A DNA stretch of 40,741 nt from NCBI GenBank assembly GCA_903871775.1, contig CAIQIA010000010.1, forward strand, positions 1 through 40,741, in the 5' to 3' direction. Positions 33,466-40,741 of this stretch are shown here, in pieces (positions within the stretch are counted from its first letter, which is position 1; each line of letters opens with the position of its first letter). The DNA comes from an uncultured cyanobacterium. Its GTDB lineage: Bacteria; Cyanobacteriota; Cyanobacteriia; PCC-6307; Cyanobiaceae. Made by a program: the position numbers and the translations under genes. A model generated the notes under the pieces. It was given only the letters and a program-made list of their open reading frames with translations. It was not told the DNA's origin and did not search any database.

Positions 33466-33942
33466 TCAGCGGGGGGCGCGGGCGAGGGCCACCGGCATCG
33501 GCCCCTGCTGGTCGGCCAGCCAGGCGGCCACCTCACGGCCGTGGGACTGTTCCTCGGCGAGCAGCGCCTCGAAGAAGCTGAGGTTCTCGCTGTCCTGGAT
33601 CTGCTGGCAGAAGCGGCTGGCTTCGGCGTAATGGCGGATGAGCTGATCCTCCAGCTCGGTGTTGCGCTCCAGCAGGCCCTCCAGGGTGGGGGCCGTGCTG
33701 ACGGTCCGGAGCTGGGAGGCGCCGGGGGCGACCCCCAGGCTGATCATGCGGGCGACGATGCGCTCGGCATGCTGCATCTCTTCGACGGTCTCGTGGCGGA
33801 AGCGGTCGGCGGCCTCGCGGTCGCCCCACGAGTCCGCCAGGGAGGCCTGGGTCATGTACTGCTGCACGGCCGACAGTTCGAGGCTGAGGGCCCGACCCAG
33901 ATAGGCCAGCACCCGTGGGTGCACGGTGGCGGTCATGCCCAT
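33466..33942 (-). CDS. ferritin-like (bacterioferritin-type) protein of the carboxysome locus
   Basis: A 158-residue four-helix ferritin-like protein: VLAYLGRALSLELSAVQQYM, ADRFRHETVEEMQHAERIVA, and NLSFFEALLAEEQSHGREVA. The E..xxQ/E..xxH pattern (SLELSAVQQY, ETVEEMQHAE, AEEQSHG) gives a plausible di-iron centre. Such bacterioferritin-like genes are regular members of alpha-carboxysome clusters, but their function is not established. The start overlaps the stop of the shell protein gene (TGATG). An ATG two codons later is possible. Confidence 0.88.
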   Translation of the reverse strand: MGMTATVHPRVLAYLGRALSLELSAVQQYMTQASLADSWGDREAADRFRHETVEEMQHAERIVARMISLGVAPGASQLRTVSTAPTLEGLLERNTELEDQLIRHYAEASRFCQQIQDSENLSFFEALLAEEQSHGREVAAWLADQQGPMPVALARAPR

Positions 33943-34499
33943 CAGCTGCGGCGGGCGCCGGCCGGGCTGGCCGCCAGGGCCGGCTCCACTTCGGCGTGGG
34001 GACGGGCAATGATGTGGGCGGCCACCAGGCCATCGCCGACCCGCTCGCAGGCATCGGCACCGGCCCGCACCGCGGCGTTCACGGCGCCGGTCTCGCCGCG
34101 CACCATCACGGTCACATAGCCGCCGCCGACGAATTCGCGGGCCACCAGGGTGACCTCGGCGGCCTTGGTCATGGCGTCGGCGGCCTCGATGGCGGGCACC
34201 AGGCCACGGGTCTCGATCATGCCGAGGGCGATCCCCTGAACGGAAGAGGTCATGGCGGTGCTGCGGGTGCGGGTGGAAGGGGTTGACCGCGCCGGGCGCG
34301 GGGCCGGCGGAACCGGCGTGGTGTCGGGGGTGCTGGGCTCCGCCGGCGTGGTGGCGGCGGGTTCGGACCCGGCCTCAGGGGTCGGGGCGGCGGCTGATTC
34401 TATAGCTGCCGGCAGGGCCGGCGGCCCAGAGGAAGCCGCCGCCGGACGGGCGTTGCTGCGGCGGCGGCTGGAGGGCTGGCGGGGGGAGGAGCTGGTCAT
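33942..34499 (-). CDS. csoS1E: BMC-domain carboxysome shell protein with long N-terminal extension (CsoS1E-like)
   Basis: The C-terminal part is a complete hexamer-forming shell domain of the CsoS1 type: VQGIALGMIETRGLVPAIEA, ADAMTKAAEVTLVAREFVGG, GYVTVMVRGETGAVNAAVRA, VAAHIIARPHAEVEPAL. In front is an extension of about 82 residues rich in Pro, Ala, Ser, Thr and Arg, without predicted structure. Shell proteins with such an extension (CsoS1E) are known in some Synechococcus and low-light Prochlorococcus. An internal ATG at 34253 starts exactly at the BMC domain (MTSSVQGIAL) and could give a short CsoS1-like form. The start at 34499 is 42 bases after csoS4B. Confidence 0.85.
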   Translation of the reverse strand: MTSSSPRQPSSRRRSNARPAAASSGPPALPAAIESAAAPTPEAGSEPAATTPAEPSTPDTTPVPPAPRPARSTPSTRTRSTAMTSSVQGIALGMIETRGLVPAIEAADAMTKAAEVTLVAREFVGGGYVTVMVRGETGAVNAAVRAGADACERVGDGLVAAHIIARPHAEVEPALAASPAGARRS

Positions 34500-34541
34500 G
34501 GCGGCAGGCGGGGGCGAACGGGAGAGGGGGCGGTGAGGCGG

Positions 34542-34793
34542 TCAACCGTCCGGTGACCAGTGGTCGATGATCCCGCCGATCGTCAGATCGGTGTGGGCCT
34601 CGGGATCGCCGCAGGCGAAGCGGGCGGCCGAGCCGCTGGCGGTGAAGACCCAGTTGCCGGGGGAGGCCCCCACCGGGTCGACGGCGACGCTGAGCTTTCC
34701 CTTGCCGGTGCGCAGCACCCGCAGGTTCCAGTGGCCCAGACCGGGCACGCGATGGGTGCAGACCAGGGAGCCGACCACCTGCATGATCTCCAT
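34542..34793 (-). CDS. csoS4B: carboxysome vertex protein CsoS4B (pentamer)
   Basis: An 83-residue BMV/CcmL/EutN-family protein: MEIMQVVGSLVCTHRVPGLG, LRVLRTGKGKLSVAVDPVGA, GNWVFTASGSAARFACGD, LTIGGIIDHW. The GxWV and G(S)AAR segments are the pentamer core. These proteins close the vertices of the icosahedral shell. The start overlaps the csoS4A stop (TGATG). The gene is the second of the usual csoS4A-csoS4B pair. Confidence 0.95.
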   Translation of the reverse strand: MEIMQVVGSLVCTHRVPGLGHWNLRVLRTGKGKLSVAVDPVGASPGNWVFTASGSAARFACGDPEAHTDLTIGGIIDHWSPDG

Positions 34794-35092
34794 CAGGCTC
34801 CCCCCGGTGCCGGTGCCGGTGCAGCGGGCGCCGCTGGGGGTTTCGGTGGGTCGGGTTCCCAGTGGTCGATGATCCCCACGATCGTGAGATCGCTTGGGTA
34901 CGACTTGCTGCCGGCGGCTTCGCGGGCGGCGGAACTGCCGACGCAGATGACCCAGTCGCCGGGCACGCAGCCCACGGCATCGACGGCCACCTTCTTGGTG
35001 CTGCCGTCGAGCACCACCTGCAGGTGCTTGTGCTCAAAGTCTGGGATGCGGTTGGTGGAGACCAGTGGTTTGACGACCTTGCAGATGAGCAT
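34793..35092 (-). CDS. csoS4A: carboxysome vertex protein CsoS4A (pentamer), with Pro/Ala tail
   Basis: A 99-residue pentameric vertex protein: MLICKVVKPLVSTNRIPDFE, LQVVLDGSTKKVAVDAVGCV, PGDWVICVGSSAAREAAGSK and LTIVGIIDHW. After the core, at about residue 79, comes a tail of some 20 residues rich in Pro and Ala that is not part of the family fold. The ATG follows the csoSCA stop after one base. With CsoS4B it closes the carboxysome shell. Confidence 0.95.
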   Translation of the reverse strand: MLICKVVKPLVSTNRIPDFEHKHLQVVLDGSTKKVAVDAVGCVPGDWVICVGSSAAREAAGSKSYPSDLTIVGIIDHWEPDPPKPPAAPAAPAPAPGGA

Positions 35093-35093
35093 C

Positions 35094-36617
35094 TCAGTGG
35101 CCTCCCGTCGGGGCGAAGGTGATCGTGGAGCGCACGGTCTCGGCCGGGATGTCGCGATCGCGGTCCCGCACCGACAGCAGCAGGAACAGCAGGCCCATCG
35201 AGGCCAGGTCGGCGTAGCGAAGGCGCAGGGCCTCCATCACCCGTTCGCCGTGTTCGATCGCCCGCTCCCGCGCCCCCGGCACGGTGCCGCGGTAGTCGAA
35301 CCGCACCACCACCGGGATGGGCAGTCCGCGGGAGACGTTCAGCCCCCGGAAGATGCGGATGCCCACGTCCAGGTCATCGGCCCCTTCTTCCACCGTGTCG
35401 AGATGGGCGAAGTAGGTGAGGTTGCGCAGATGGATCTCCTTGAAGCCGATGCCCACGCCGATGAAGCGTTCGGCATGGCCGGCATCGCTGTAGGCGCCGC
35501 CGTGGAACCAACGCACGTAGTCGATCTGGGAGATGTTGTGTTCGATCAGCCGGGCCAGCAGCCGGGCCATGCCCCCATCGACGGGACCCGGCGCCGCGGC
35601 CGTGACCCGTTCCAGCAGGGCTGCGCGGGCGGCGTCGGCCGAAAGACCCGACGTGGCGCCGTAGAGCTCGGCGGCATCGAGCCACTGGTCCAGCTCCACC
35701 CGGCCGTCGCGGTCAGGCACATGCACCCGCAGGGTGTCGGTGTCGGTGTCGAGGCCCAGCAGCAGCAGATCGACCGAGGCGCCGCAGCAGAAGCTGTTCT
35801 CCACCGCCTGGCGGAAGGCCTCGAGCCGGTCCATGCCCGCCCGACGGGCGGCGGCATCGTCGGAGCCGTGGGCGGCGCAGCCCTCGTGGCCGGGATCCAG
35901 CGAACTGAAGTGATAAACCACCACCTTCAGGTAGCGGGTGGGGGCATGGGCCTCGTTGGGCACCGCCTCGCGGTAGCGCCGGTGTTCGGTCTTGACCCAG
36001 CGGTCGACGGTGTTCTCGACGTCGAACAGGGCCCCGGCATGGGGGCGGCGGCGCACGCAGCTGGTGGGAATGCGCAGGGCATAGGCGATGGCATGGGCCA
36101 GCCTGCCGTCGGCGCAGGGGGTGATGTCCAGCAGGTGGAAGCCGCAGTCGAGCAGGAACTGCTGGAATCCGTCGCTGTCCCTGGCGGCCAGGGGATGGTC
36201 GCGGAAGAAGCCCGTGCTCACCTGTTGGTAGGTCTCGAAGACGCACCAGGCGAAGAGGGTGCGCATGTCGAGCTGGGTCACCCAGGCGTTCTCGAGCAGC
36301 GGCAGGGGCAGCTGAAATCCCAGCTCGCGCACGGCGATCGCCTGGGCCCGGGCCACGAAGTCGGGCTCGTGCTGCTGGGCTGACAGCTCCTTCAGCACCG
36401 GCACGATCCGGTCGAAGGCCTGCTTGGTGCGTTCGTCGTAGCGCTGCAGCAGATCGTTGGCGGCGCCGTCGGTGAGGGGGTGACGGTCCCGGGGCCAGCC
36501 CGCGGGACCCGGCCGGCGCAGCGGCTGACCGCTGGCGGCGGCATCAGCCGGTGTGGGCCGCCGGCGCGGGGCCGTCGGGGCCAGGGACCGTGGGGGGAGG
36601 GCAGGACGTCGGGGCAT
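35094..36617 (-). CDS. csoSCA: carboxysomal carbonic anhydrase CsoSCA (CsoS3)
   Basis: A 507-residue shell-associated carbonic anhydrase. The zinc and catalytic residues can be placed: Cys168, Asp170 and Arg172 in DITPCADGRLAHA, His236 in VVVYHFSSLDPG and Cys247 in HEGCAAHGSDDAA, in the same order and spacing as the characterised Halothiobacillus enzyme. The N-terminal 50 residues are basic and Pro/Arg-rich, a likely binding tail for RuBisCO or the shell. It converts imported bicarbonate to CO2 next to RuBisCO. The start overlaps the csoS2 stop (TGATG). Confidence 0.95.
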   Translation of the reverse strand: MPRRPALPPRSLAPTAPRRRPTPADAAASGQPLRRPGPAGWPRDRHPLTDGAANDLLQRYDERTKQAFDRIVPVLKELSAQQHEPDFVARAQAIAVRELGFQLPLPLLENAWVTQLDMRTLFAWCVFETYQQVSTGFFRDHPLAARDSDGFQQFLLDCGFHLLDITPCADGRLAHAIAYALRIPTSCVRRRPHAGALFDVENTVDRWVKTEHRRYREAVPNEAHAPTRYLKVVVYHFSSLDPGHEGCAAHGSDDAAARRAGMDRLEAFRQAVENSFCCGASVDLLLLGLDTDTDTLRVHVPDRDGRVELDQWLDAAELYGATSGLSADAARAALLERVTAAAPGPVDGGMARLLARLIEHNISQIDYVRWFHGGAYSDAGHAERFIGVGIGFKEIHLRNLTYFAHLDTVEEGADDLDVGIRIFRGLNVSRGLPIPVVVRFDYRGTVPGARERAIEHGERVMEALRLRYADLASMGLLFLLLSVRDRDRDIPAETVRSTITFAPTGGH

Positions 36618-38968
36618 CAGCCTCGGGCACCTCCGGAGACGGTGATCAGGGAGCCCTTGTCGGTGTTGCCGCTCGAACCGGTCACCCGGCTCACGGGCTG
36701 CTCGACCGTGTCGTTGCGCTTCTGCTGGAGCATGGCCATGGCGCCGACGGGGCCGCTGCGGCTGGGGTTGCGGCGACGGGCCGAGACCCCTTCGGTGCCG
36801 GTGACCCGGTCACCACGATCCCAGTCATCGCCGGTGATCTTGTGGCCCGATCCTTCGCCGGTCACCCGGGAGATGGGGCGAGCCGCGTCGCCGGCTTCCG
36901 CCGGAGCCGGGGCCGCGACCGCAGGACGACGATCGAAGCGGAACTGTTCGGTGCCGGTCACCTTGTTGCCGGCGCGGTCAAAGGGGCCGGTGATGCGGGC
37001 CGAACCCTGGACGTCGGTGCGGGTGCCGGTCACGGCCCGGGCGGGGGAGGTGACGCTGAAGCGCTCCCAGGGGGCGCCCTCCAGGGGTTGGGGCATGTCG
37101 GCCGCGCCGCTCACGTCGCTGGGGCAGGCCTCGGCGAACTGGTCGCTGCCGATGTACGGGGTGCCGCTGATCGGTTCACAGGCCCCGCGGGACGCTCCCG
37201 TCAGGCTGCCGCCGATGCCGGGCTGCTGCCCCGTGAGGCGCGCCCCGGGGGTGGCGGCGCCCATGGGCGTGCGCTGGCGGATCTGCTGCACCTGGGGGCC
37301 GGCGCACCAGCTGCCCGCCTCGTCGAAGCCGGCGTAGGGGGTGCCGGTGACGGCCTTGCAGGTGCCGGCCTCGTCGCCGGTCACCTTCTCGGAACGGCCG
37401 GTGCGGGTGCCGCTCACCACCAGGGAGCGCTGGGTGAGGCTGAAGCCCACCTTGGGGGCCTCGGGGGCTGGCCGCGTGCCGCAGAAGCGGTCGTACTGCT
37501 CGCTGCCGATGTATTCGTCACCGGTGATGAGGCGGCAGCTGCCGGGCTCGTCCCCGGTCATCTTGTCGGAGCGGCCCACGTGGGTGCCGGTGACGCCGGT
37601 GCCCCGCAGGGTGTTGAACCTGTTCACCTTGGCCGGCGCCTGGCCGGGCACCTGGCGCTGCAGCGGTTCGGTCACGTACTGGTCGCCGGTGATCTGACGG
37701 CCCGATCCGGGCTCATCGCCGGTCACTTTTTCTGAACGGCCCACCATCACCCCGGAGACCGGGCGGCCCGCCTGGGTCTGGCTGAGGCCCACCTTGCGGG
37801 GGGAGGGGCTGCCGGTGCCGCACCAGGCGGCCGACTGGTCGGCACCGATGTATTCGGTGCCGGTGATCGTCTTGCAGGTGCCGGGTTCGTCACCGGTGAC
37901 CTTCTCGGAGCGGCCCACCTCGTTGCCGGTGACCCGGTTGCCGTGGCTGGTGGCGCTCACCCGCACCTTGTCGGGTTGCAGGGGGCGGGCGTCACTGCCG
38001 CAGAAGCTGCGGAAGATCTCGGAGCCGAGGTATTCGGTGCCGGTAATCGGACGGCAGGTGCTGGCCTCGTTGCCGGTGGTCTTGTCGGAGCGGTTGGCCA
38101 TGGTGCCGGTCACCACCTGCCCGCGGCTGGTCGTGCTGGCGCCCACTTTCCAGGGGGCGTCCTGGGCAGGGGCGGGGCCGCTGGCCTCGGGTGCCCGGCG
38201 TCGGGGGCCCGATGGACGGGCGGGACCGCTGCTGATGCCGGTGGCGGCGGCGGCGCCGCTGCGGCTGCGCAGCTCACGGATCTTGAGGGCGAGTTCGCGG
38301 CTGTTCAGATCGGGGTTGGACTGCCGCACCACCGCCGCCGTGCCGGTGCCGCGGGGGGTGTTTGCGAGCTTGCCCCGCTGGCTGAGGGCTTCGCGGCGGG
38401 CCAGCACCAGGGCGCGGCTGGGGTTGTGCTGGGCGGTGCGCTTGACCGCAGAGCTGCGGCCGTTGCTGCGGCTGGACCCCGGGGCCGGCGTTTCGAGGCT
38501 CAGGCGGGTGCGCTGGGGGGCGACCTCACGGCTCTTGCCCTCCTGGCACTGGCATTTGTGCTCCGTGCTGGCCGCGACCGGAGCGGCTGCGGCGGGCTTG
38601 CTGGCCTCCTCCCGGGCGACATCCACGCGGGTGCGGTCGCGGCTGGTGTCGGCCCGCTTGCCACGGCGGCTGAGGGCCTCCCGGCGGCTCAGCACCAGAT
38701 CGCGGCTGGGGTTGGCGATGCGGGTGGCCTGGGTGTGTTGCCGGGGGGCCGAGGGCTCGGCGCTCAACCGCCGGGCCACCACGGGCTCGGGGCGGCTGAT
38801 GGCAGCCGGGGCCTGAGGGGCCGGTGTCTGGGTGCGGCTGGGGCGGGCGTCGGCGGCGGTGCGGACGCGACCGGTCGCCGTGGAGTGGCGGTTCTCGGCG
38901 GTCTTTCCTCCCGAGGACAGCGCCATCCGGCGTGCCAGGGCTGCGTCGCGACTCGATTGCTTGGCCAT
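36617..38968 (-). CDS. csoS2: carboxysome assembly protein CsoS2
   Basis: A 783-residue intrinsically disordered scaffold. N-terminal region: four RuBisCO-binding repeats (RDAALARRMALSSGGK, RDLVLSRREALSRRGK, RALVLARREALSQRGK and a weaker RELALKIRELRSRSG). Middle region: about six repeats with V(T/S)G(T/N), RS(D/E)K(V/T)TG(D/N)E and ITG(T/D)xY motifs, most with paired cysteines; the third, near residues 395-440, lacks them. C-terminal region ends VTGSSGNTDKGSLITVSG, the shell-binding tail. CsoS2 links RuBisCO to the shell. A good GGCGGAA ribosome site precedes the ATG. A single A-rich SEK codon set at 37727-37732 may allow frameshifting. Confidence 0.95.
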   Translation of the reverse strand: MAKQSSRDAALARRMALSSGGKTAENRHSTATGRVRTAADARPSRTQTPAPQAPAAISRPEPVVARRLSAEPSAPRQHTQATRIANPSRDLVLSRREALSRRGKRADTSRDRTRVDVAREEASKPAAAAPVAASTEHKCQCQEGKSREVAPQRTRLSLETPAPGSSRSNGRSSAVKRTAQHNPSRALVLARREALSQRGKLANTPRGTGTAAVVRQSNPDLNSRELALKIRELRSRSGAAAATGISSGPARPSGPRRRAPEASGPAPAQDAPWKVGASTTSRGQVVTGTMANRSDKTTGNEASTCRPITGTEYLGSEIFRSFCGSDARPLQPDKVRVSATSHGNRVTGNEVGRSEKVTGDEPGTCKTITGTEYIGADQSAAWCGTGSPSPRKVGLSQTQAGRPVSGVMVGRSEKVTGDEPGSGRQITGDQYVTEPLQRQVPGQAPAKVNRFNTLRGTGVTGTHVGRSDKMTGDEPGSCRLITGDEYIGSEQYDRFCGTRPAPEAPKVGFSLTQRSLVVSGTRTGRSEKVTGDEAGTCKAVTGTPYAGFDEAGSWCAGPQVQQIRQRTPMGAATPGARLTGQQPGIGGSLTGASRGACEPISGTPYIGSDQFAEACPSDVSGAADMPQPLEGAPWERFSVTSPARAVTGTRTDVQGSARITGPFDRAGNKVTGTEQFRFDRRPAVAAPAPAEAGDAARPISRVTGEGSGHKITGDDWDRGDRVTGTEGVSARRRNPSRSGPVGAMAMLQQKRNDTVEQPVSRVTGSSGNTDKGSLITVSGGARG
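37727..37732 (-). other. possible -1 frameshift site in csoS2
   Basis: In the third middle-region repeat the RSEKVTGDE motif is written TCA GAA AAA GTG, with five to six A in a row, while the other repeats with the same residues use GAG AAG. A -1 slip here leads to a stop codon (TGA) about four codons on, giving a product of about 418 residues, similar in plan to the short CsoS2A made by frameshifting in Halothiobacillus. The sequence is not a classical X-XXY-YYZ heptamer. Confidence 0.35.
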
Positions 38969-38996
38969 TTCCGCCCCGTGAATGAAAAAGCTGGTG

Positions 38997-39024
38997 AAAA
39001 AAGGTCCCTGCGTCAGCAGGGACC
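38997..39024 (-). terminator. intrinsic (partial) terminator between cbbS and csoS2
   Basis: On the minus strand GGTCCCTGC TGAC GCAGGGACC forms a perfect 9-bp stem with a 4-base loop, followed at once by TTTTTT. It lies 13 bases after the cbbS stop and 28 bases before the csoS2 ATG. In an operon that continues, this would reduce read-through and so lower csoS2 and shell gene expression relative to RuBisCO. Confidence 0.85.
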
Positions 39025-39036
39025 GGATGGACCGAT

Positions 39037-39378
39037 TCAGCGTGCTTCGAAGACAACGAAGCAGGAACCCTGGCTCTGGGTGTAGGCGTCGTAGCCCACG
39101 AGCCGGACGTGGTGGTCGGGGTAGGCGCGATGGCAGGACTCGAGCTCACTCACGATGGCCGAGAGATCCTTCTCCCCGAAGAAGGGGAGCTTCCAGTACG
39201 ACCAGTAGGTCGCCATGGAACGGCTGGGGTGGGTGTGCTCGATCACAGGGCTCCAGCCCTGGGCAATGATGTACGCGATCTGGTCATAGATCTCGTCCTG
39301 GGTCATCGGCGGCAGGAAGCCGAAGGTCTCCAGTGTGGCGACTGTTTGATAGTCACCCACGGTGCTCTTGAAGGGCAT
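39037..39378 (-). CDS. cbbS: RuBisCO small subunit, form IA
   Basis: A 113-residue small subunit: MPFKSTVGDYQTVATLETFG, FLPPMTQDEIYDQIAYIIAQ, SRSMATYWSYWKLPFFGEKD, HHVRLVGYDAYTQSQGSCFV. This is the form IA type found with alpha-carboxysomes. It caps the L8S8 holoenzyme. The gene lies 81 bases downstream of cbbL. Confidence 0.97.
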   Translation of the reverse strand: MPFKSTVGDYQTVATLETFGFLPPMTQDEIYDQIAYIIAQGWSPVIEHTHPSRSMATYWSYWKLPFFGEKDLSAIVSELESCHRAYPDHHVRLVGYDAYTQSQGSCFVVFEAR

Positions 39379-39418
39379 GCTGATCCTTGGGGTGAAGGGT
39401 GTGTTGCGCCAGGTGCGA

Positions 39419-39440
39419 GGGAGTGGTTATGGCCACTCCC
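39419..39440 (-). other. hairpin in the cbbL-cbbS intergenic region
   Basis: GGGAGTGG and CCACTCCC form an 8-bp stem around a 6-base loop, 20 bases after the cbbL stop. No T-tract follows, so it is not an intrinsic terminator. It could protect the cbbL mRNA end or mark a processing site. Confidence 0.6.
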
Positions 39441-39459
39441 TTCCGTCACCTGAAGACGA

Positions 39460-40741
39460 TCACTTGACGTCGAGCTTGTCGACGGTGTCGAACTCGAACT
39501 TGATCTCTTTCCAGGTCTCGAGGGCGATGGCCAGCTCGGGGCTGTGCTTCGCGGCTTCCGTGAGGATGTCGCGGCCTTCCTTCTCGATCTCGCGACCGGC
39601 GTTGCGGGCCTTGACGCAGGCCTCGAGGGCCACGCGGTTGGCAGCGGCACCAGCGGCAGAACCCCAGGGGTGACCGTGGGTACCACCACCGAACTGCAGC
39701 ACCGAATCGTCACCGAAGATGCTGACGAGGGCCGGCATGTGCCACACGTGGATACCACCGGAGGCCACGGCGAAGACGCCGCCCATTGAGCCCCAGTCCT
39801 GGTCGAAGAAGTTGCCGCGGCTGCGATCTTCGGGAACGAAGGATTCACGCAGCTGGTCGATGTAGCCGAGGGTCGACTGGCGGTCGCCCTCCAGCTTGCC
39901 GACCACGGTGCCGGTGTGCAGCTGGTCACCGCCGGAGAGGCGCAGACACTTGGCGAGCACACGGAAGTGGATGCCGTGCTTGGGATGGCGGTCGATCACC
40001 GCGTGCATGGCGCGGTGAATGTGCAGCAGCATCCCGTTCTTGCGGCACCACTTGGCAAGACCGGTGTTGGCGGTGAAGCCACCGGTGATGTAGTCGTGCA
40101 TGATGATGGGTTGACCCAGTTCCTTGGCGAACTCGGCCCGCTCATACATCTCCTCAGGAGTGGCGGCGGTGCAGTTGAGGTAGTGACCCTTGCGCTCGCC
40201 GGTCTCCTGTTCCGCAGCCTTGACGGCCTCGGCGACGAACTCGAAACGGTTCTGCCAGCGCTGGAAGGGCTGGGAGTTGATGTTCTCGTCGTCCTTGGTG
40301 AAGTCGAGACCGCCGCGGAGGCACTCGTACACCACACGGCCGTAGTTCTTGCCGCTCAGGCCGAGCTTCGGCTTGATGGTGCAACCCAGCAGGGGACGGC
40401 CGTACTTGTTCATACGGTCACGCTCAACCTGGATGCCGTTCGGCGGACCCATGCAGGTCTTGATGAACGCCAGGGGGAAGCGGATGTCTTCGAGGCGCAG
40501 GTGACGCAGCGCCTTGAAGCCGAACACGTTGCCGACCAGGGAGGTCAGAACGTTGGTGATGGAGCCTTCCTCGAACAGGTCGAGGGGATAGGCGATGAAG
40601 GCATAGAAGGATTCCTTGTCGCCAGGAACGTCTTCGATGCGGTAGCAACGGCCCTTGTAGAAGTCGAGGTCGGTGAGGAGCTCGGACCACACAGTGGACC
40701 AGGTGCCGGTGGAGGATTCAGCGGCCACAGCGGCGGCCACT
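39460..40741 (-). CDS. cbbL: RuBisCO large subunit, form IA (5' end outside the window)
   Basis: The window contains the last 426 or so residues; by comparison with the family about 40-45 N-terminal residues lie beyond base 40741. The frame enters at [14 protein letters not shown]. Active-site segments are present: [17 protein letters not shown] (catalytic Lys), [17 protein letters not shown] (carbamylated Lys and the Mg-binding Asp-Glu), [12 protein letters not shown], and [11 protein letters not shown]. The high similarity to proteobacterial form IA and the neighbouring csoS2 identify the alpha-carboxysomal enzyme. It fixes CO2 inside the carboxysome. Confidence 0.98.

Follow-up and report, generated by a model that had tools for sequence, protein, structure and literature searches.

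The cso operon of Halothiobacillus neapolitanus holds the same genes as the carboxysome operon described here, in what we take to be the proteobacterial order, with the csoS1 genes last. Secondary-structure elements in this operon were reportedly proposed by Cai et al. in 2008. According to PMC2760150, which cites Cai et al. 2008, the transcript and protein levels of this operon are correlated. A cyanobacterial example is provided by the phycocyanin operon of Synechococcus elongatus PCC 7942, where an incomplete terminator is reported to set the ratio of cpcBA to linker mRNA at 6:1 (PMC3219970). The two cases are alike in that a terminator would lie within an operon, between abundant subunits and low-copy partners, in a cyanobacterium devoid of Rho; they differ in that the operon is another one, that the transcript ratio was measured for cpc but is deduced from sequence for cso, and that conservation across the family is documented for the latter.

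Rho is absent from cyanobacteria, and only 22% of the transcription units of S. elongatus are reported to end at intrinsic terminators, with higher U content and U-tract strength correlating with lower read-through (PMC13289151). The terminators mapped there by Rend-seq share the GC-rich hairpin and U-tract of our element, but they were scored at the ends of transcription units, whereas the one between cbbS and csoS2 is situated inside an operon. Intergenic stem-loops also set the stoichiometry of a multi-protein complex in the cip-cel operon of Ruminiclostridium cellulolyticum, although they are described as working through endonuclease cleavage and transcript stability, not through polymerase release (PMC10311766).

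Here, we analyse a hairpin located directly after cbbS in a window (i.e. the whole stretch of DNA under study, 40,741 nucleotides) from an uncultured member of Cyanobiaceae. We reason, with a probability of roughly 0.6, that it acts as an intra-operon intrinsic terminator that is partly read through. A literature search (titles and abstract openings) returned no report of a cbbS-csoS2 hairpin in alpha-cyanobacteria, and the portions consulted of PMC12918739, PMC4633670, PMC2570492 and PMC2897979 held nothing relevant to it.

Operon organization and anatomy of the hairpin

The features of the operon are as follows:

39460..40740, minus strand: cbbL, RuBisCO large subunit, 5' end lost at the contig end (PF00016, E 1.6e-139)
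39418..39441, minus strand: second hairpin, in the cbbL-cbbS gap, without a U-tract (tail CGCACC; gap fold z -3.94)
39037..39378, minus strand: cbbS, RuBisCO small subunit, upstream of the terminator-like hairpin (PF00101, E 1.8e-36)
39003..39024, minus strand: predicted terminator hairpin, nine perfect pairs, TGAC loop (sequence and fold)
38997..39002, minus strand: six-U tract, immediately 3' of the stem (sequence)
36617..38968, minus strand: csoS2, scaffold protein, first gene 3' of the hairpin (PF12288, E 1.6e-194)
35094..36617, minus strand: csoSCA, carboxysomal carbonic anhydrase (PF20686, E 2.2e-113)
34542..35092, minus strand: csoS4A and csoS4B, pentameric vertex proteins (PF03319 in both)
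33942..34499, minus strand: BMC-domain shell protein, judged by position a minor shell paralogue (PF00936, E 7.2e-26)

On the minus strand, positions 39024-39003 read GGTCCCTGC-TGAC-GCAGGGACC and are followed by TTTTTT (39002-38997). The stem of nine perfect pairs and the 4-nt loop reach about -17.9 kcal/mol in the computed fold; a spacer of 12 nt (39036-39025) separates the hairpin from the end of cbbS (39037), and 28 nt lie between the end of the U-tract and the csoS2 ATG (38968). With a stable GC-rich hairpin and a U-tract right after the stem, the element is, as judged from its sequence, a canonical intrinsic (Rho-independent) terminator located within the carboxysome operon; the original prediction had placed and described it correctly, as a perfect 9-bp GC-rich stem followed by six U between cbbS and csoS2. 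Rfam covariance models, searched over 34000-40741, gave no match at the hairpin site at E values up to 1. Adjoining the csoS2 ATG, a GGGCGGA-type leader (38969-38977 in the window), unlike a standard Shine-Dalgarno sequence, is kept in most relatives, the AT-rich genus g18 excepted.

The window contig ends inside cbbL and thus csoS1 is not visible in the operon of this genome. In Synechococcus RCC307 (L047) the BMC gene directly 5' of cbbL is csoS1 by both sequence and position, and csoS1 was found directly upstream of cbbL in 88 of the 141 loci that include the 5' part of cbbL (88 of the 91 with sufficient upstream sequence). Among the 53 others, 50 have at most 1500 nt before cbbS, too little to reveal csoS1, while L033, L152 and L153 have sufficient upstream sequence and yet no csoS1 before cbbL. 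CsoS2 is encoded downstream in 149 of 152 loci. The original prediction held that the hairpin separates the RuBisCO genes from those for scaffold and shell: the boundary between RuBisCO and csoS2 stands, but the major shell gene csoS1 lies on the RuBisCO side in relatives. Hence, the hairpin would divide the high-copy components (csoS1-cbbL-cbbS) from the low-copy ones (csoS2 onward), and the gene order in the window and its relatives fits the copy numbers published for H. neapolitanus and Prochlorococcus MED4 (values of other species).

Occurrence in the source genome

The own-genome sample, to which the window belongs, comprised 814,936 bases or 32% of the genome and has a GC content of 69%. 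Stems of -8 kcal/mol or stronger followed by at least five T in the next six positions occurred at 25 sites, against 9-16 in five first-order shuffles, and those of -15 kcal/mol or stronger at 10 sites, against 0, 1, 2, 1 and 2. The cbbS-csoS2 hairpin ties for third to fourth in strength among these 10 (the two ranked above it being one identical sequence at two contig ends) and no second site of this class lies on the minus strand of the 40.7-kb window. Strong canonical terminators are thus very rare in this GC-rich genome, in agreement with the report that S. elongatus ends most of its transcripts by other means. A consensus terminator scan, whose loose threshold accounts for its lack of significance, found 3 sites against 2.7 expected, and the 75-nt minus-strand fold at the site had a modest z-score of -1.58 (12 of 200 shuffles were equally good).

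Conservation in relatives

We assembled 173 sequences (80 named relatives, further family members, two proteobacterial plasmid operons and the window itself), from which 21 near-duplicates were removed to give 152 distinct loci; as the loci are mutually related, the counts below are not independent. Counts were made at fixed distances from the cbbS stop, and the cbbL stop was located with a CbbL query. Genus names and habitats (e.g., "freshwater") were assigned by interpretation.

In 137 of the 152 loci the 70 nt past the cbbS stop contain a perfect-stem hairpin that reaches -10 kcal/mol or better, compared with 1/152 for a control in the 3' end of cbbS; conservation among close relatives, on which the original prediction had staked its case, is therefore borne out. 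The stem starts at a median of 20 nt past the stop codon (IQR 15-22). For the 70 nt that follow cbbS, the fold has a median z of -3.05, with values below -2 in 113/152 loci, as against 1/152 for the last 70 nt of cbbS, 22/152 at 90-160 nt past the stop and 42/148 before cbbS (the window's own value, -1.83, is not exceptional). At least one hairpin locus was present under 24 of the 27 genus labels, and a hairpin plus U-tract under 21.

About ten of the 15 loci without a perfect-stem hairpin fold an imperfect one at the same place (judged by eye), and L033, L038, L145, L146 and L152 have no convincing hairpin after cbbS. A hairpin plus U-tract was absent from both proteobacterial loci examined (L152 and L153, from plasmids, the H. 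neapolitanus gap not being among them). The outer stem of L123-L125 (genus g18) is likewise CTTTCTCC, but the inner part is longer and AT-rich, so that the perfect-stem filter passed over these loci despite the T-rich tail that follows. Two records with foreign names, L033 ("Betaproteobacteria bacterium REEB420") and L073 ("Bifidobacterium breve"), have a cyanobacterial-type cbbS (93% and 92% identical) and are thus probably mislabelled or contaminated bins.

The 137 loci hold 115 different hairpin sequences, with a GGTCCC-type in freshwater forms, GAGCCCTGA and TAGCCTCGA in others and CTTTCTCCAA in the AT-rich genus g18. Covariation was assessed in two sets of 32 and 25 hairpins, selected from the 115 distinct ones for similar stem type; since choosing in this way biases the pairing percentage upwards, it is the double changes that carry information. 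In the freshwater set 7 of 9 pairs showed compensatory changes, with 32 double-changed cells versus 8.2 in shuffled data (none of 500 shuffles as high). The second set had such changes in 4 of 9 pairs, with 27 double-changed cells versus 10.2, while two of its five measures were not above the shuffles (further pair types, 499/500 as high; double-change pairs, 62/500). The hairpin has been conserved by compensatory change, and is retained at one site through complete sequence turnover.

U-tract strength

Tails after the hairpin are poor in G and rich in U: at least four U in eight follow it in 108/137 loci (25.7% of background windows), and a T-run of at least four in 62/137 (45%, versus 5.8%), while 29/137 have fewer than four U in any eight of the 12 nt past the stem. 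U is maximal at positions 4-8, which places the tract of most relatives a few bases away from the stem. Only 16/137 loci have at least five T within the first six positions: thirteen of them belong to a single AT-rich genus, and the others are this window, its sister L002 and L136.

By a terminator score of the d'Aubenton-Carafa type, the median locus is at the threshold (0.8), with 70/137 above 0 and 67/137 at or below zero, and the window ranks third of 137. The original claim of a strong terminator consequently applies to this locus and a few others but does not extend to the median relative; from its sequence features, the element resembles a strong terminator in this window and a marginal, leaky one in most relatives. 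Of the bins in the 4 kb surrounding cbbS, the 100 nt just past this gene hold the most terminator-like sites (83 over the 152 loci), and the next-densest bin (22 sites) is the one that holds the cbbL-cbbS gap.

The other intergenic gaps

Hairpins were also present in the cbbL-cbbS gap (81 nt long in L002) of 94/148 loci, 45 of these 94 with at least four U in eight, and in the csoS1-cbbL gap of 4/88. Among the 85 operons with hairpins both before and after cbbS, a U-tract accompanies only the cbbS-csoS2 one in 37 and only the cbbL-cbbS one in 7, and the former outscores the latter in 62/85 (same terminator score; Wilcoxon p 1e-8). As far as sequence goes, we consider this comparison within operons the strongest argument that termination occurs at the cbbS-csoS2 gap, and the cbbL-cbbS hairpins the best indication that stabilisation may matter too.

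The start of cbbS is itself unusual: at codons 6-24 (39363-39307 of the window, minus strand) synonymous positions hardly vary among 98 GC-rich relatives, with four-fold heterozygosity averaging 0.08 in codons 1-15, 0.18 in codons 16-30 and 0.28-0.45 later. The AT-ending codons CAA ACA at the cbbS start are retained in GC-rich genomes, and in the window this near-invariant stretch folds into a hairpin around TAYCAAAC and may harbour a hidden element of RNA or DNA. It is an unlikely extension that in Cyanobiaceae the two hairpins of cbbL-cbbS-csoS2 and the near-invariant cbbS start form one conserved RNA module with a condition-adjusted RuBisCO:CsoS2 ratio. Such a module would both fix and adjust the ratio, with ribosome coupling at the cbbS stop or a small RNA as conceivable means. 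In MED4, the small RNA Yfr10 is reported to target csoS1 and csoS2 and no other genes of the operon (PMC6778093).

Alternative explanations

The main rival is processing and stabilisation: the whole operon would be transcribed, an endonuclease would cut 3' of the hairpin, and the hairpin would block 3'-5' exonucleases, so that the cbbL-cbbS mRNA outlasts the csoS2 part and the U-tract is secondary. A tract of the strength found in the window is uncommon among relatives, which keeps this explanation alive, and the hairpin, kept in 137/152 loci, is far better conserved than an immediate U-rich tail (16/137), which counts against termination. Intercistronic stem-loops of the kind expected for a processing element lie in both gaps, the cbbL-cbbS one mostly with a poorer U-tract (and with none in the window), and stopping at the latter would upset the 1:1 subunit ratio. 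There is also a precedent for stem-loops in cellulosome stoichiometry, in the cip-cel operon already mentioned. Nevertheless, the tails are G-poor and much richer in U than background, for which stabilisation has no need, and within the same operons the U-tracts are systematically better at cbbS-csoS2 than at cbbL-cbbS; both observations favour termination. In S. elongatus, moreover, defined 3' ends without U-tracts are reported mostly to lack stabilising structure (PMC13289151). We regard processing alone as rather unlikely, although termination and RNA stabilisation may act together.

A true end of the transcription unit, with csoS2 onward served by its own promoter in cbbS or in the gap and the terminator insulating the two units, appears improbable. 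It would accord with the high terminator score in the window, and GC-rich cyanobacterial promoters can lack a consensus. A consensus search, which can miss such promoters, found no sigma-70-like promoter on either strand of 34000-40741 and no hexamer within one mismatch of TATAAT from 34402 to the contig end, which suits the condition set in the original prediction, by which the downstream genes would depend on read-through if they lack a second promoter. Only 28 nt lie between the U-tract and the ATG, and a hidden promoter in the 3' half of cbbS was considered and rejected, as synonymous variation there is normal and not reduced.

Very improbable, in our estimate, is a translational role, in which the hairpin would affect csoS2 initiation or the ribosomes leaving cbbS. 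The distance from stop codon to stem would suit it, placing the hairpin just beyond a terminating ribosome, given the size of the ribosome footprint. The distance from hairpin to csoS2, however, ranges from tens of nucleotides to well over 100 (starts called from peptide patterns, some of them wrong), and in the centroid fold of the window no pairing involves the csoS2 leader. A chance or compositional palindrome, for which the non-significant consensus scan and the modest 75-nt z-score might speak, is scarcely credible in view of 137/152 loci, 115 different hairpin sequences and compensatory changes.

Discussion

Partial termination remains the reading that we favour. The polymerase would start upstream of csoS1/cbbL and transcribe the high-copy genes; at the hairpin and U-tract a part of the polymerases would be released, and the remaining ones would proceed into csoS2, csoSCA, csoS4A/B and the minor BMC gene. 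No second promoter would then be needed to separate the genes of the operon by copy number. From the sequence we infer that termination takes place in vivo, that a fraction of transcription reads through and that protein ratios are affected.

The CbbL:CsoS2 ratio is given as 8:1 in H. neapolitanus, and that of Rubisco:CsoS2 as 1:1.1 in MED4 (PMC9040747). With CbbL:CsoS2 at about 8:1 and translation per mRNA equal, approximately one polymerase in eight would be reading through. An RNA-seq map of MED4 reports the cso cluster as an operon, using as criterion the lack of a sharp coverage drop between genes (PMC3898218), and may speak against a large coverage step at the hairpin in that strain.

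If the partial stop holds true, the hairpin would be a simple way to make far more enzyme than scaffold, and, by analogy with the phycocyanin operon (PMC3219970), this mechanism has a published cyanobacterial precedent. Alpha-carboxysomes hold about eight CbbL per CsoS2 in the measured cases, and the conserved hairpin is a concrete candidate for how a single operon yields this ratio. Much of the CO2 fixation in the oceans is due to the alpha-carboxysomes of Prochlorococcus, marine Synechococcus and Cyanobium. In transfers of the operon to plants or to other bacteria, the hairpin would be worth keeping or retuning.
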